This document shows, piece by piece, positions 49,760-54,879 of a DNA stretch of 64,000 bases. The notes beneath the pieces were generated by a model. It was not told where the DNA came from. It searched no databases and saw nothing but the letters and a program-made list of their open reading frames with translations. Made by a program: the position numbers and the translations under genes. The first letter of the stretch is position 1; each line of letters begins with the position of its first letter. Source of the DNA: Ralstonia sp. SET104 (lineage in GTDB: Bacteria > Pseudomonadota > Gammaproteobacteria > Burkholderiales > Burkholderiaceae); NCBI RefSeq assembly GCF_003851545.1, contig NZ_BHVX01000009.1:62001-126000 (forward strand). Direction: 5' to 3'.

Positions 49760-50056
49760 ATGACCCAACCCACCCCCGGAACCCGCGAACCCTTCGATGC
49801 CCGCCGCCTGGAAGCGCACGACGCGCTGTATGACAAGCTCGGCAAGCTGCGCACGATGCTGAGCATGTTGCACGCCAGCGGTTTTGAACACTTCCGCCGC
49901 ATGGAGGAACACCGACAAGCGGACTACCTGGGGACGTGCATGGAGCTGGCTGACGAACCGTTCTCAGACCAGAACCCCGAGCACGTCAGAATCGCCAACA
50001 AGATCGAGGTTCGCCTGGTCGATCAAGGCCTGCTGCCCCGCTACGCAGACCTGTGA
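49760..50056 (+). CDS. Hypothetical protein, 98 residues
   Basis: Unrecognised small, highly charged, soluble protein: MTQPTPGTREPFDARRLEAH, then HDALYDKLGKLRTMLSMLHAS, which should be a helix, and a C-terminal NKIEVRLVDQGLLPRYADL. AGGA lies seven bases before the ATG. It has no membrane segment and no obvious DNA-binding motif. It sits alone behind a long structured leader and before the amyloid-like cluster. The leader-plus-small-protein layout reminded me of phage or satellite regulatory genes, but no integrase or repeat supports this. Confidence 0.6.
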   Translation: MTQPTPGTREPFDARRLEAHDALYDKLGKLRTMLSMLHASGFEHFRRMEEHRQADYLGTCMELADEPFSDQNPEHVRIANKIEVRLVDQGLLPRYADL

Positions 50057-50376: not shown

Positions 50377-51717
50377 ATGACGCAGTCGCCATGGTGGCCG
50401 CAATGCGGGTCGATGCATACGATTCGCGCGGTTACATGCGCATGCCTGCTGCTGTGCGGCGGGCCGGTCCTTGCGCAGACCAACCAGCCGGTGGACGACA
50501 AGCCACCCAGCCTGGAAGCCCTGCAGCGCGAGCTTGCTGACACGCAGGCTCGCCTGCGGGAACTCAAGCACTCAATCCAGCAGCAGGAAGCCCATGTGCG
50601 GCACATGCGGCGCGCGCTCGGCATGACCGAGGGCCAGCTCGATACCGTACGCGGTGCCGGTGCACCCGGCGCGGCGGGTGCGGCGGGCGACGCATCGCAA
50701 GTCGCGCAGAACGACCAGCCCGGCACCACGCCCGTCGGCAAGCCACCCGAGCCGCCCGACCGGCCACCACGCATCGCGCAGATCTTTGACGAGCCCAGCG
50801 CGCTCACGCCGCCGGGCAAGGTCGTCGTCGAGCCGTCTTTGCAGATGGCGTATTCGTCGTCAGACCGTGTGGCGCTGGTGGGCTACACCATCATCCCTGC
50901 GCTGCTGATCGGTCTGATCGATGTACGGCAAGTGAAGACGACCACGCTCACCGGCACGGTGGCCTTGCGCTACGGTCTGGCGCGGCGCTGGGAGCTGGAA
51001 GCCCGCGTGCCTTACGTCTACAGCGCGAGCGACACCGTCAGCCGCGAACTGTTTACCGGCACGGCCACGGACAACGCTTTCAGCTCGCATGGCCGCGGCA
51101 TTGGCGATGTGGAGCTGACGGCGCGCTATCAGCTCAACGCGGGCGGCGTCGACAAGCCGTTCTACATCGGCTGGATGCGCTTTAAGACACGCACCGGCAA
51201 GGATCCGTTTGAAGTCACCACCGATTGCGTGACACGCTGCGTGAGCAACACCACGGGCACGGGCCTGCCGCTGCAGCAGCCAACAGGCTCGGGCTTCTTC
51301 GCGGTTCAGCCGGGGCTGACGTGGCTGTTCCCGACCGACCCGGCGGTGTTCTTCGGCAGCATCAGCTACCTGCACAACTTCGAGCGCAAGGATGTGAGCC
51401 TGAATCTGGTGGATGGCTCGCGGCAGTTTCTGGGCAATGTAAAGGCCGGCGACATCATTGGCCTGAACTTCGGTATGGGGCTGGCACTGAACGAGAAGGC
51501 GGCGTTCTCGATCGGCTATGACCAGAGCATCATCGCGCCGACCAAGCAGAACGGCCAGCGCGTGCCGGGCTCTGTGCGCACGATTCTCGGTACGTTGCTG
51601 GTCGGGTATTCGTACCGGCTCTCGCCCAAGACGACGCTGAACCTGTCGGTGGGTGCAGGCCTCACGCGTGACACGCCAGACCTGACCGTCACGCTGCGTC
51701 TGCCGATCCAGTTCTAG
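50377..51717 (+). CDS. FapF-like outer-membrane beta-barrel protein with N-terminal coiled coil
   Basis: The 446-residue protein has a signal peptide (to about Ala33), a coiled coil (residues 45-85, LEALQRELADTQARLRELKH), a Gly/Ala/Pro linker (93-135) and a C-terminal domain of alternating strands ending in Phe (TLRLPIQF), typical of outer-membrane barrels. FapF of Pseudomonas, which secretes Fap amyloid subunits, has the same signal, coiled coil and barrel order. GGGGGAA precedes the ATG by eight bases. It converges on the FapE-like gene with one base between stops. Databases may label similar proteins generically as transporters. Confidence 0.72.
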   Translation: MTQSPWWPQCGSMHTIRAVTCACLLLCGGPVLAQTNQPVDDKPPSLEALQRELADTQARLRELKHSIQQQEAHVRHMRRALGMTEGQLDTVRGAGAPGAAGAAGDASQVAQNDQPGTTPVGKPPEPPDRPPRIAQIFDEPSALTPPGKVVVEPSLQMAYSSSDRVALVGYTIIPALLIGLIDVRQVKTTTLTGTVALRYGLARRWELEARVPYVYSASDTVSRELFTGTATDNAFSSHGRGIGDVELTARYQLNAGGVDKPFYIGWMRFKTRTGKDPFEVTTDCVTRCVSNTTGTGLPLQQPTGSGFFAVQPGLTWLFPTDPAVFFGSISYLHNFERKDVSLNLVDGSRQFLGNVKAGDIIGLNFGMGLALNEKAAFSIGYDQSIIAPTKQNGQRVPGSVRTILGTLLVGYSYRLSPKTTLNLSVGAGLTRDTPDLTVTLRLPIQF

Positions 51718-51718
51718 C

Positions 51719-52258
51719 TCAGTGCAGCATGGTGACGACGTTGGCCAGCGCGCCTTGCAGCACGTTGGCCAGATTCATCTGACGGAACTGCGGCAGGCTG
51801 TTGACCGCTGCGTTGATGGTCGTCACCGCTTGCAGCGTCTGATTGTTCAGGCTGTTCTGGATGACGGTGGCCGCCGCTGCCGCACCCGCGGCCACATCGG
51901 GCGGTGCGACATTGTTCGGCCCGTTCTGCACCAGGTTGACCGTATTGACCACCGTGGCCAGTTGCTGCGCCTGCGTGGCGTTCATGCGTGCCACGTCGGG
52001 GATGTTGACCGATGCGCTCGCCACCAGATCGCCGTTGATGTAGACCGCGCGATCGATGCCGAACGAGATGTGCAGCCCCGCGAGTGCGGGCACGTCAAAC
52101 CCGCCGCGCATGTCGTCAAGCTTGTCTTCAGACACGGCCTGCCAGGCATGTACGGGATTGCCATCCACACTGTCCATACCGGCCGCACACGCGTGCCCGG
52201 CCGCAGCCAGCGCGAGCCACCCAACGGCCCACGCCGCCGCCTTGCCAAACCGCTTCAT
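51719..52258 (-). CDS. Small secreted protein with LDDMRGG double-glycine motif (FapE-like position)
   Basis: This 179-residue protein has a signal peptide (1 to about 26, HACAAG) followed by residues 44-53 EDKLDDMRGG, a double-glycine site of the kind cut by C39 peptidases. The mature part is rich in Asn, Gln, Val and Ala with repeats such as VVNTVNLVQN and VIQNSLNNQTLQ, similar in style to amyloid subunits. GGAGGG precedes the ATG. It lies 57 bases after the C39 peptidase gene on the same strand. A role as minor subunit or assembly factor is inferred. Confidence 0.7.
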   Translation of the reverse strand: MKRFGKAAAWAVGWLALAAAGHACAAGMDSVDGNPVHAWQAVSEDKLDDMRGGFDVPALAGLHISFGIDRAVYINGDLVASASVNIPDVARMNATQAQQLATVVNTVNLVQNGPNNVAPPDVAAGAAAAATVIQNSLNNQTLQAVTTINAAVNSLPQFRQMNLANVLQGALANVVTMLH

Positions 52259-52315
52259 GATGCCCTCCTGCCAAGACTGCCGGCTTGCCGCGCACGGATC
52301 GTGCTCAAACCGCGC

Positions 52316-53020
52316 TCAGAAGTCGGACGGGCCATGCTTGGGGACGACGATGTTCCCCAGGCCACGGCGGTCCACGCCTTGCTCCAGCGGTGCACGCGGT
52401 GCCACGCGCCAATCCGATGCGGCGTTGAACGTCGCCCCTGCCTCGCGGTTGTGGACGACGAACAGCAAATGGTTGTCCCACATGCTCTCGAAGCTCGCAC
52501 GTGGGATTGCGCGCGTGCCCATGGCCGGATCGCCCACCAGCACACGCCCTTCCTGCACGCCCTTGACCACCACGAAGTGGTGATAGCCGTTTTCGCTCAG
52601 CAGCACGATGGCCGGCAAGTGGGCGTCTTTCAATGCATCCAGCGGCTGCTCAAAACCATCGGCGTCAAAGCCCTGAGACTCCAGATAGCGTTTGATGTCG
52701 AGCAGCGAAAAGCCCTCATGCCGGATCTTCTCCTGGTTGCCGTGCTCGTACATGGCCTGGAACACCGTCTGCTCGCTCACCGCATAGCCGTACTGATACG
52801 TGAGCAGCGTCGCCACCGCGGCCGACCCGCAACTGAAGTCGAAACGCTGGTGCACGGTGCGCAGGTAGCGCGCGGCCTTCATGCTCGTCACGGGCACGGC
52901 ATACGTGCCGCCGCCGGTGCCGAGCATGTCAACCGTGCCTGCCAACGCAGGCCCGCACACCAGTGCCGTCACCAATGCCGCCGCCGCCATCGGCACTGCA
53001 CCACACGCCTTGCGCATCAT
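52316..53020 (-). CDS. Secreted C39 family cysteine peptidase (FapD-like)
   Basis: This 234-residue protein has a signal peptide (to about Ala27) and a stand-alone C39 peptidase domain: RFDFSCGSAAVATLL with the catalytic Cys64, GYHHFVVVKG with the catalytic His, and VGDPAMG supplying the Asp. It lacks the ABC domains of bacteriocin C39 exporters, so it must act in the periplasm like FapD of the Pseudomonas Fap operon. Neighbouring secreted proteins carry double-glycine motifs that it could cut. Two ATGs (53020, 53017) follow AAGGGG. Confidence 0.82.
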   Translation of the reverse strand: MMRKACGAVPMAAAALVTALVCGPALAGTVDMLGTGGGTYAVPVTSMKAARYLRTVHQRFDFSCGSAAVATLLTYQYGYAVSEQTVFQAMYEHGNQEKIRHEGFSLLDIKRYLESQGFDADGFEQPLDALKDAHLPAIVLLSENGYHHFVVVKGVQEGRVLVGDPAMGTRAIPRASFESMWDNHLLFVVHNREAGATFNAASDWRVAPRAPLEQGVDRRGLGNIVVPKHGPSDF

Positions 53021-53036
53021 GGCGCCCCTTACGGAC

Positions 53037-53471
53037 TCAAGGCCGGAACTGCACGTTGACGATGGTGGCGTTCTGGATCAACACGTTCGCTCCGCTGTTC
53101 TGGATGACCGTGGGGATGCCGGACGCATTGGCAAACGAGCCGTCGCGCACGATGTTCGACCCCGTCGCCACGTTGACGGCGGCGTTGTCGCTCACGGTGC
53201 CCGACAGGCGCGCATCGTTGACGGTCTGGTAGAGGTCCTGCGTGCCGCCGCGATAGCTGTCGAGCCTGTCTGCCCCCACCGCATGACCGAGCCCAGGCAC
53301 CGACACGGGCGCGGCGACCGGGGGACGCACCGCTTCCGTGTTGGCTGTCTGTGCACCGTCTGCGATTGGCGCATCGTCTGCTGCCATCGCCGCTGCCGCT
53401 GGCCAAACTGCCAGGCCGCATGTCAACAACCATGCTGCCCATCCTGCTGTGGTTCCTCTGTCGGATCGCAT
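53037..53471 (-). CDS. Small secreted protein with LDSYRGG motif and QNSG repeat (FapA/B-like)
   Basis: This 144-residue protein has a signal peptide (to about Ala31), a Pro/Ala segment, then residues 69-76 RLDSYRGG, a double-glycine site like that of the gene at 51719. The C-terminal part has a QNSG..LIQ....NVQ motif (residues 124-141) that recurs at the C-terminus of the Gly-rich protein upstream. AGGAGA precedes the ATG. It starts the second half of the cluster, 16 bases before the C39 gene. It is a candidate amyloid subunit or nucleator. Confidence 0.7.
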   Translation of the reverse strand: MRSDRGTTAGWAAWLLTCGLAVWPAAAAMAADDAPIADGAQTANTEAVRPPVAAPVSVPGLGHAVGADRLDSYRGGTQDLYQTVNDARLSGTVSDNAAVNVATGSNIVRDGSFANASGIPTVIQNSGANVLIQNATIVNVQFRP

Positions 53472-53604
53472 CGAATGTCTCCTGTACGTTCCAACTGCGT
53501 CCCCAACTGCGGGCCGGACTACGCATGCAGCCCGGCCCTATCCACCGCTACGCGCACAACATCACTGCACGCGCGGCACTTCCCCGCTCATGCCTGATAC
53601 CGGG

Positions 53605-54879
53605 CTATTTGCCGACATTCAGGTTGGCCTGCACGTTGATGCTTTGCTGGATGAGAGAGGCAAAGCCGCTGTTCTGGCTTGCCATCATCACGCCGGCTGC
53701 GGATTGACCGACGCTGGTCATCGCGTTGGACATGTTGAACGTGCCGGCATCCAGCACAACCGTGCCGCCTGCACCGCCCGTACCGCCCACCGCACCATTG
53801 CCGACACCGCCGTTGCCGACGCCGCCCGCGCCGCCAGCCGCACCGACTGCGCCCACAGCACCATTGCCTGCCGTGGACGAAGCCCCGCCGTTGGTCGCGC
53901 TGCCGTTGGTGGCGCTGCCGCCTGCGCCGCCATTGCCTGCCACGTTGGTGGCTGCGCCGCCTGCACCTGCCGCGCCGCCCGTGCTGGTGCCGGTGGCGCC
54001 GCTCGCGCCTGTGCCAGCACCCGCCGATGCGGTTGATGAGCCGCTGGTGGTGGAGCCTCCAGCCCCGCCTGCGCCGCCGGCCGAGGCGCTGTCACCGCCC
54101 ATGGCCGCACCGCCGCCATGATGCCGGTTCGCATCACCACCGCTGGCGCTGGACGCACCGCCTGCCCCGCCACCACCGCTGCCGGCCGCGCTCGTGCTGC
54201 CCGCTGCGCCGCCAAGGCCGACGCCCAGGCTGGCCGACAGCGTGCCCGAGCTGCCGCCGTTGCCGCCGCCGCCCGCGCTGCCGGTGGCGTTGCCGCCATT
54301 GGCGCCGTCGCCCGCCACTGCACCGCCATTGGTCGCGCTGCCGTGCGTGACGTTGCCCGAGCTGCCGCCCGCGCCGCCGCCACCGCCCGCGCCACCGGCG
54401 CCGCCGTTGCCACCGGCACCGGTGCCGCCGTAGCCATAGCCGCCACGGCCACCGCTGCCGCCATTGGCGGTGCCGCTATTGGTGACGACATTGCCGATGC
54501 CCGACACACTGACATTGCTCACGGCACCGTCCAGCCTGGAGATCGCAATCGCCTTGCTGGTGTTGAAAGAGTTGGTGAACGCGGCGGTGGCCGTACCGCC
54601 GTTGTTGGCCGCAGCCGTGCCATAACCATCGGCGTGGGCCCAGCCGCTGTTGTCACGGTTGCTGCCCTGGCTTTGGTTGTTGTGCTGGTTGGAGTTATCG
54701 GCTGCCGTTGTGGTTGTCGTTGTCGTTGTTGCTGTGCTGGTGTCGGTTCTGGTGATGGTCGATGTATTGGTTTGGGTCTGATCCCCCGCCCCGGACGCTG
54801 AGTTCCCGATATCGGCCAATGCAACGCCAGAGACCCCCAATCCCATGGCGATCGCGGTGGCCAGTAAGGTCTTCTTCAT
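53605..54879 (-). CDS. Secreted glycine/alanine-rich protein, candidate fibre subunit
   Basis: This 424-residue protein has a signal peptide (MKKTLLATAIAMGLGVSG, to about Ala22), a Thr/Ser/Asn-rich region (30-90), a segment with SRLDGAVSNVSVSGIGN, and a Gly/Ala low-complexity stretch (about 145-365) resembling PGRS-type sequence. The C-terminal block FNMSNAMTSVGQSAAGVMM is followed by QNSGFASLIQQSINVQ (402-417). The last motif matches that of the protein at 53037. GGAGTGCGTT precedes the ATG. It is likely the main exported substrate of the FapF-like barrel; this is inference. Confidence 0.75.
   Translation of the reverse strand: MKKTLLATAIAMGLGVSGVALADIGNSASGAGDQTQTNTSTITRTDTSTATTTTTTTTAADNSNQHNNQSQGSNRDNSGWAHADGYGTAAANNGGTATAAFTNSFNTSKAIAISRLDGAVSNVSVSGIGNVVTNSGTANGGSGGRGGYGYGGTGAGGNGGAGGAGGGGGAGGSSGNVTHGSATNGGAVAGDGANGGNATGSAGGGGNGGSSGTLSASLGVGLGGAAGSTSAAGSGGGGAGGASSASGGDANRHHGGGAAMGGDSASAGGAGGAGGSTTSGSSTASAGAGTGASGATGTSTGGAAGAGGAATNVAGNGGAGGSATNGSATNGGASSTAGNGAVGAVGAAGGAGGVGNGGVGNGAVGGTGGAGGTVVLDAGTFNMSNAMTSVGQSAAGVMMASQNSGFASLIQQSINVQANLNVGK

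Follow-up and report, generated by a model that had tools for sequence, protein, structure and literature searches.

A compact Fap-related locus of Ralstonia sp. SET104 predicted to secrete an amyloid fibre with a glycine-rich subunit

Introduction

In the Fap functional-amyloid systems of bacteria, the catalytic cysteine of the peptidase FapD is required for secretion (PMC5557850). This work deals with a Fap-related locus of five adjacent genes in Ralstonia sp. SET104, found in a stretch of 64,000 nucleotides (contig NZ_BHVX01000009.1, positions 62,001 to 126,000) that is hereafter called the window. The genes encode a FapF-like outer-membrane barrel, a FapD-like C39 peptidase and three apparently secreted proteins, named B, D and E. 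With a probability of about 70%, these genes form a compact system for secreting amyloid fibres, which would belong to a group that is akin to canonical Fap yet distinct from it and would work by the mechanism proposed below; this reading is drawn from sequence comparisons and one predicted structure.

Several features of canonical Fap are relevant here. According to PMC5557850, the Fap proteins lack a C39 sequence of the canonical kind, although GG and GA motifs occur in FapE; the first ~70 residues of FapE yielded no observed peptide, and cleavage may also occur in the linker of FapF. What FapD cuts is described as unclear in that paper and as undetermined in PMC6173800. A double-glycine in FapF has also been noted (PMC5135000), and according to a 2025 review FapD is thought to process the N-terminus of FapE and FapF (PMC12822426). 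The published Fap survey took only operons with four or more fap homologues; it noted fapD–fapF pairs in five more phyla and gave the absence of fapA as the commonest Fap variant (PMC6173800). Ralstonia pickettii is listed as a Fap carrier (PMC3792158).

C39 peptidases are also known from other systems. For the PCAT/AMS enzymes (LahT, PCAT1, ComA), which belong to the same C39 family and have the same catalytic Gln/Cys/His/Asp residues, a recognition pattern has been biochemically defined: Leu at −12, Glu at −8, Leu at −7 and a hydrophobic residue at −4, then a double glycine, with the substrate residues −4, −7 and −12 being held by the enzyme (PMC6363468, PMC6959990). The peptidase of the window differs from them in being apparently Sec-exported and free, without an ATP-binding cassette (ABC) transporter, and the leaders described below follow a Sec signal. 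The nap island of Neisseria gonorrhoeae (NapP, NapF, NapA–C) is comparable, as far as its published description is drawn on here, in combining a C39 peptidase, a FapF-like channel and products with a GG motif (PMC11798529). The nap products are small cationic autolysis peptides, unlike B, D and E. The Acinetobacter Fil system (FilA–F) has in common with the window a related C39 peptidase, FilB (2.2e-35), and a related barrel, FilC (1.3e-16; both NCBIfam). Fil was rejected as the same system: its partners FilA, FilE and FilF have no counterpart among B, D and E, which match nothing in NCBIfam, and the one fil locus that was read (L188) lacks the shared FapB-type repeat (best E 0.24) as well as any protein matched by the models of B, D and E.

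Neither this group nor its leader motif was found to be described in the open-licence literature searched. Only FapD and FapF of the window type are recognisable by the models run, so that the four-homologue rule of the published survey probably filtered such loci out. They are not rare: the peptidase has at least 553 relatives, of which 80 were examined, every one of them accompanied by D and B.

A FapD/FapF pair outside the canonical Fap group

By sequence, the peptidase is a C39 enzyme resembling FapD in which the catalytic residues are conserved. It matches Pfam Peptidase_C39 (7e-24) and NCBIfam FapD (1e-39, 136 bits), it aligns with the double-glycine protease LahT (PDB 6mpz, E 1.2e-9), and its residues Q58, C64, H148 and D164 are invariant in an alignment of 13 sequences. 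The barrel protein is likewise a FapF relative, an assignment based on sequence together with one AlphaFold2 model. NCBIfam FapF matches it at 1.6e-44 (152 bits), and the solved FapF chains (PDB 5o67) match a profile of 43 barrel relatives at E 2.3e-49 over profile positions 126–447. In the model, which has a mean predicted local distance difference test (pLDDT) score of 78, a helix at residues 46–80 and a low-confidence linker precede 15 strands starting from residue 149. The earlier note on this DNA, made from the letters only, had read these two proteins as a secreted stand-alone C39 peptidase of FapD layout and a coiled-coil plus beta-barrel outer-membrane protein of FapF layout, and both readings agree with these comparisons. 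In the search against Fap families that it proposed, FapF and FapD were matched, and no NCBIfam model was found at E 1 for B, D or E; Pfam and PHROGs scans of the three also gave no useful family. The FapF and FapD matches both lie below the curated cut-offs. The two proteins are thus a FapD/FapF pair, yet an outlying one.

The position of this pair was studied in two trees, one built from 64 peptidases and the other from 52 barrels; both have midpoint roots, and the barrel tree comes with a long-branch warning. The canonical loci used were L003 and L152–L160, and later L201–L211, of which five lie above the FapD cut-off. Canonical Fap occupies one side of a branch with support of 99/92 in the peptidase tree and 99/96 in the barrel tree. 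The window type and eight divergent relatives (L161–L168) form one group (100/100 for C39, 97/98 for the barrel), which with the midpoint root falls outside canonical Fap in both trees, and the branch joining both groups in the peptidase tree has 92/73. As judged from these trees, the two types are separate groups, and the window type is likely sister to canonical Fap. The nearest named relative in both trees is a Ralstonia strain, with 98% barrel identity.

The same genome (4.80 Mb, 58 contigs) contains a second C39 gene, which lies inside a six-gene locus (L003; G000 contig C16, 3316–8262) with the order fapA-B-C-D-E-F, the genes being named by position and resemblance. The FapF of that locus scores 380 bits against 152 for the barrel of the window. 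The window locus is thus a paralogous system and not the sole Fap-type locus of the cell. Two things keep it from being classed as canonical Fap, the lack of a subunit of FapC type and its place outside the Fap group; there is also no obvious fapA gene at the locus, although no search with a FapA model was made.

Variation also occurs among canonical loci: in one of them (L206), FapD and FapE are each encoded twice, in tandem.

Conservation of the gene set

Gene content was compared in 81 loci, namely that of the window and the best 80 of the at least 553 peptidase relatives found by a scan with the peptidase alignment; going by their titles, the 80 are nearly all from Burkholderiales and Lysobacterales. 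The genes for D, C39 and B are present in all 81, that for the barrel in 77 and that for E in 71, with all five in 70. Since D, C39 and B occur together in 81/81 loci, their linkage is not due to chance. The order E-D-C39-B on one strand is found in 71 loci, and D-C39-B in the other ten. The placing of the barrel gene varies: among the 77 loci it is co-directional and downstream in 46, convergent and downstream in 17, and divergent and upstream in 14, which places it on the opposite strand in 31. The convergent barrel gene emphasised by the earlier note is therefore true of the window, where the stop codons of the barrel gene and B stand tail-to-tail with a single base separating them, but represents only one of three arrangements.

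As the 81 loci had been chosen by the peptidase, linkage was tested from B and D too. B was found in 21 of the 61 genomes searched, including 16/16 of the genus (own genome included), and D in 35/150 genomes of the family and 9/274 of the class. With flanks of ~1.5 kb, a C39 gene lies beside B in 21/21 genomes found by B and beside D in 9/9 found by D, the own genome being counted in both. Homologues without the C39 gene, named by the earlier note as an observation that would speak against its proposal, were thus not seen from either side.

Double-glycine-type leaders

Both B and D carry a double-glycine-type leader, VSEDKLDDMRGG followed by F in B and VGADRLDSYRGG followed by T in D, which sits ~25–45 residues past the likely Sec cleavage site as judged by eye. 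In B, LxxxRGG with a hydrophobic residue at −12 is present in 81/81 loci. In D, LxxxRGG is found in 59/81 and Lxxx[ST]GG in 20/81, and −12 is hydrophobic in these 79; the D of two loci (L083 and L105) has RAG in place of the GG motif. These counts of D were anchored on the Leu, in accordance with the reading by eye, while first-match anchoring gave GG in 77/81. Both proteins therefore follow the C39-substrate pattern of hydrophobic −12 and −7 and small residues at −2/−1 (81/81 and 79/81). A strict pattern (hydrophobic −12, −7 and −4, then RG[GA]) is found in 68/81 B proteins, compared with a mean of 1.5 and a maximum of 4 in shuffled sequences, and in 35/81 D proteins (shuffle mean 0.6, maximum 3). 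A looser pattern reaches a mean of 10.6 and a maximum of 17 of 81 in shuffled B; its counts in E (4/71) and C39 (4/81) are under their shuffle means.

A like motif is present in all 22 canonical FapE proteins examined (shuffle mean 1.3, maximum 6, scored with position −4 left free). Position −12 is Leu, Ile, Val or Ala, position −8 is Glu in 19 of the 22, and position −7 is Leu or Met; the motif ends in RG[RK] (one HGK), after which comes Tyr or Phe. The linker of the barrel protein has LxxxRG[GA] in 31 of 77 loci (shuffle mean 3.1, maximum 7). In the window this motif, MTEGQLDTVRGA, is placed by the AlphaFold2 model at the end of the helical part and the start of low confidence, after a helix at 85–93 and where pLDDT falls below 50 (93–123). 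Plain double-glycine leaders on two partners, together with a like motif in 22/22 FapE, provide an exact cut-site prediction for FapD: the end of the leader is a candidate site in B, in D and in canonical FapE.

Related motifs were noticed elsewhere. In two genomes outside the class, the FapF linkers (L211 6085–7500 and L210 793–2226) contain LAPDDLVTMRGRY and VEAAGMRGTF, which are similar to the FapE leader motif. Two loci have an extra small coiled-coil-like protein adjoining the barrel (L165 4173–4586, L167 6112–6573); it bears IRG[RK]F close to its end and looks like a FapF helix split off into its own gene. A leader motif of related form was also recognised by eye in a small secreted protein encoded upstream of the fapA-like gene in two canonical operons (L152 8249–8668, L153 7767–8081).

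Repeats and glycine-rich core of the secreted proteins

A hidden Markov model (HMM) of the repeat was built from the C-termini of D and E and their divergent relatives, and was run on 963 open reading frames (ORFs) from ten canonical loci and the window. It finds the D (9e-24) and E (7e-17) of the window, and the next seven matches are canonical FapB proteins (4.8e-8, 3.6e-5, 3.2e-4, 0.0023, 0.0041, 0.031 and 0.058), their identity having been checked by BLAST; an eighth FapB, at 0.42, is level with an unrelated ORF of the window. We conclude from these matches that one FapB-type repeat is present in each of D and E, at the C-terminus. When compared by hhalign with FapE, FapB and FapC profiles, the C-terminus of E gave no convincing match, although the larger repeat model did find FapB. 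Relationships among the secreted proteins are closer: hhalign gives 96% for B against D, which are probably homologous to each other, and 82% for D against E. B also aligns weakly with FapE (E 3.2e-4; 27 columns, covering the leader and an FG motif), the reversed control giving 0.86. For comparisons with FapE, eight FapB rows were taken out of the FapE model, whose second iteration had been polluted by them.

The window lacks a FapC-type major subunit with tandem repeats, and E has instead one repeat and a Gly-rich core. The earlier note saw in E a 424-residue Gly/Ala-rich secreted protein with a PGRS-like core in place of the usual Fap repeats; the protein and its core are indeed as described, but E does end in a FapB-type repeat. 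The PE_PGRS proteins of mycobacteria have a Gly/Ala-rich low-complexity core that appears similar to this one. E differs from them in having no match to the PE domain in Pfam and in carrying an apparent signal peptide and a FapB-type repeat instead. Within the core there is a weak GGX triplet periodicity, with a lag-3 Gly z of 2.8 in the window; across 68 E proteins of 250 residues or more, the median z of the period-three Gly signal is 4.2. Among the divergent relatives, at the position of E, L163 has four tandem repeats, L164 has two short one-repeat proteins, and L166 and L167 have an Asn/Asp/Ser-rich spacer followed by the same final repeat. Since the core is replaced in divergent relatives and the final repeat kept, the Gly-rich core of E is best read as a lineage-specific, variable spacer. 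The group would also provide a series of naturally occurring amyloid subunits with a constant final repeat and a varying spacer.

In four of the 81 loci, all from Paraburkholderia (L056, L060, L071 and L115), two E-type genes are found side by side.

Proposed mechanism

By homology and architecture, the locus probably works like Fap. The likeness comprises a FapF-type barrel with a periplasmic helix, a C39 peptidase of FapD type and, encoded beside it, a weakly FapE-like B; D and E contain repeats of FapB type, and the leader motif is like that of FapE. The differences include single repeats, a Gly-rich spacer, and GG where FapE has RG[RK]. All five proteins, with signal peptides judged by eye, would enter the periplasm by Sec. 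There the C39 peptidase is predicted to remove a second, double-glycine-type leader from B and D, and perhaps to cut the barrel linker as well, and this removal would license or open secretion through the barrel, which is putatively an outer-membrane channel of FapF type whose helical domain is periplasmic. B, as the putative FapE equivalent, would start or anchor export. D, with its one repeat, would be the nucleator, and E the bulk subunit, presenting a C-terminal repeat behind a long Gly-rich spacer. In the resulting fibre, single repeats may stack into a cross-beta spine, with the Gly-rich chains decorating or linking it, and its likely use is as a surface or biofilm-matrix fibre distinct from a canonical Fap fibre of the same cell.

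A broader proposal can be put forward tentatively, at somewhat less than even odds. FapD-type enzymes in general might be periplasmic double-glycine-leader peptidases, whose substrates carry two successive leaders, a Sec signal followed by one of C39 type that directs them to the FapF pore or gates it; the peptidase–export logic of PCATs would then be split across two membranes. The group of the window would represent the plain double-glycine form of this scheme, and its fibre would be a composite in which single cross-beta repeats are combined with Gly-rich chains, possibly of polyglycine-II.

Weighing of the evidence and alternative explanations

A number of observations weigh against the amyloid-secretion reading. 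The equivalog cut-offs are missed by far, both by the barrel (152 bits against 700) and by the peptidase (136 against 330), and the sister relationship to canonical Fap depends on midpoint roots. E, searched for with a C-terminal model, was not found in 10/81 loci; in three of these (L089, L113 and L118) D lies less than 500 bases from the end of the stretch. The repeat HMM listed no FapC among its matches in the 963 ORFs and left the FapB of 2/10 canonical loci unlisted at E 10; on eleven further canonical loci it was weaker (best 0.0078 among 479 ORFs). Against FapC repeats E aligns poorly (hhalign E 0.03), and the probability of the match of B to FapE is 39%. The fit to the leader pattern is also imperfect: position −4 is hydrophobic in 68/81 B and 53/79 D proteins and in 17 of the 22 FapE, the other five having Gln, and 46 of 77 barrel linkers are without the strict motif. 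FapE has Arg/Lys at −1 in 22/22 and not Gly, Ala or Ser, a misfit to the narrow C39 cleft of PCAT1. The 81 loci are related, so that motif counts are non-independent and the shuffles, which disregard relatedness, must be read accordingly; moreover, the motif common to B and D may reflect their shared descent. Its presence in B and canonical FapE, in D and in some barrel linkers gives more independent support than the shuffles do. Fibre formation, secretion and cleavage at this locus are themselves predictions made from sequence.

Three other explanations have been considered. It is rather unlikely, in our opinion, that E forms a Gly-rich polymer on the cell surface that is of polyglycine-II or silk-like type and not amyloid, its C-terminal repeat acting only as a secretion or anchoring signal for the FapF-like pore. 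A core with 43% Gly, a triplet periodicity with z above 3 in 57/68 E proteins and a strongly conserved C-terminal stretch would suit such a polymer; the repeat, however, is kept or multiplied in L163, L166 and L167, which have no Gly core, and so looks essential. A module whose products are double-glycine peptides or proteins exported to serve as signals or as bacteriocin-like agents appears improbable, despite the GG leaders of B and D and the gonococcal nap island, where the same types of protease and channel go with GG substrates, for B, D and E have 144–424 residues and are not peptides below 10 kDa, and D and E contain FapB-type repeats. Finally, the barrel matches Pfam Phenol_MetA_deg over its cut-off (2.7e-6; 28 bits against 22) and is encoded on the other strand, so it could be an unrelated uptake channel of that type that became a neighbour by accident. 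This is very improbable indeed, given that FapF is by far the better match and the best family, which also answers the possibility, raised by the earlier note, of an unrelated transporter, and that the barrel gene is linked in 77/81 loci, in 46 of them downstream and co-directional. The amyloid-secretion reading is preferred to all of these. The distinct Fap-like amyloid or surface-fibre system that the earlier note had proposed is thus the interpretation to which the FapF and FapD relatives, the trees, the FapB-type repeats, the weakly FapE-like B and the synteny point.

Features of the locus

The five ORFs anticipated by the earlier note were all confirmed, and their coordinates are given together with those of the main motifs in Table 1.

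Table 1. Coordinates of the genes, leader motifs and repeats in the window
Feature	Positions	Strand	Remarks
FapF-like barrel gene	50377–51717	+	ORF of 446 residues; apparent signal peptide
B, weakly FapE-like secreted protein	51719–52258	−	ORF of 179 residues; apparent Sec signal and double-glycine-type leader
C39 peptidase gene, FapD-like, stand-alone	52316–53020	−	ORF of 234 residues; apparent Sec signal
D, small secreted subunit (putative)	53037–53471	−	144 residues; apparent Sec signal followed by a double-glycine-type leader; single FapB-type repeat at the C-terminus
E, large secreted fibre-subunit candidate	53605–54879	−	424 residues from the ATG at 54879; apparent Sec signal
Leader-like motif MTEGQLDTVRGA of the barrel protein	50623–50658	+	M−12, L−7, V−4, R−3, G−2, A−1
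Double-glycine-type leader VSEDKLDDMRGG of B	52100–52135	−	V−12, L−7, M−4, GG
Double-glycine-type leader VGADRLDSYRGG of D	53244–53279	−	V−12, L−7, Y−4, GG
FapB-type repeat of D, residues 101–143	53043–53171	−	Repeat HMM
Gly/Ala-rich low-complexity core of E, residues 142–372	53764–54456	−	43% Gly, 21% Ala
FapB-type repeat of E, residues 379–422	53614–53745	−	Repeat HMM

A scan of the locus for promoters and terminators gave no result above chance. Between QueF and the barrel gene there is an ORF of 98 residues (49760–50056, + strand) with a weak match to Imm52 (1.2e-4, 22.2 bits against a cut-off of 25).

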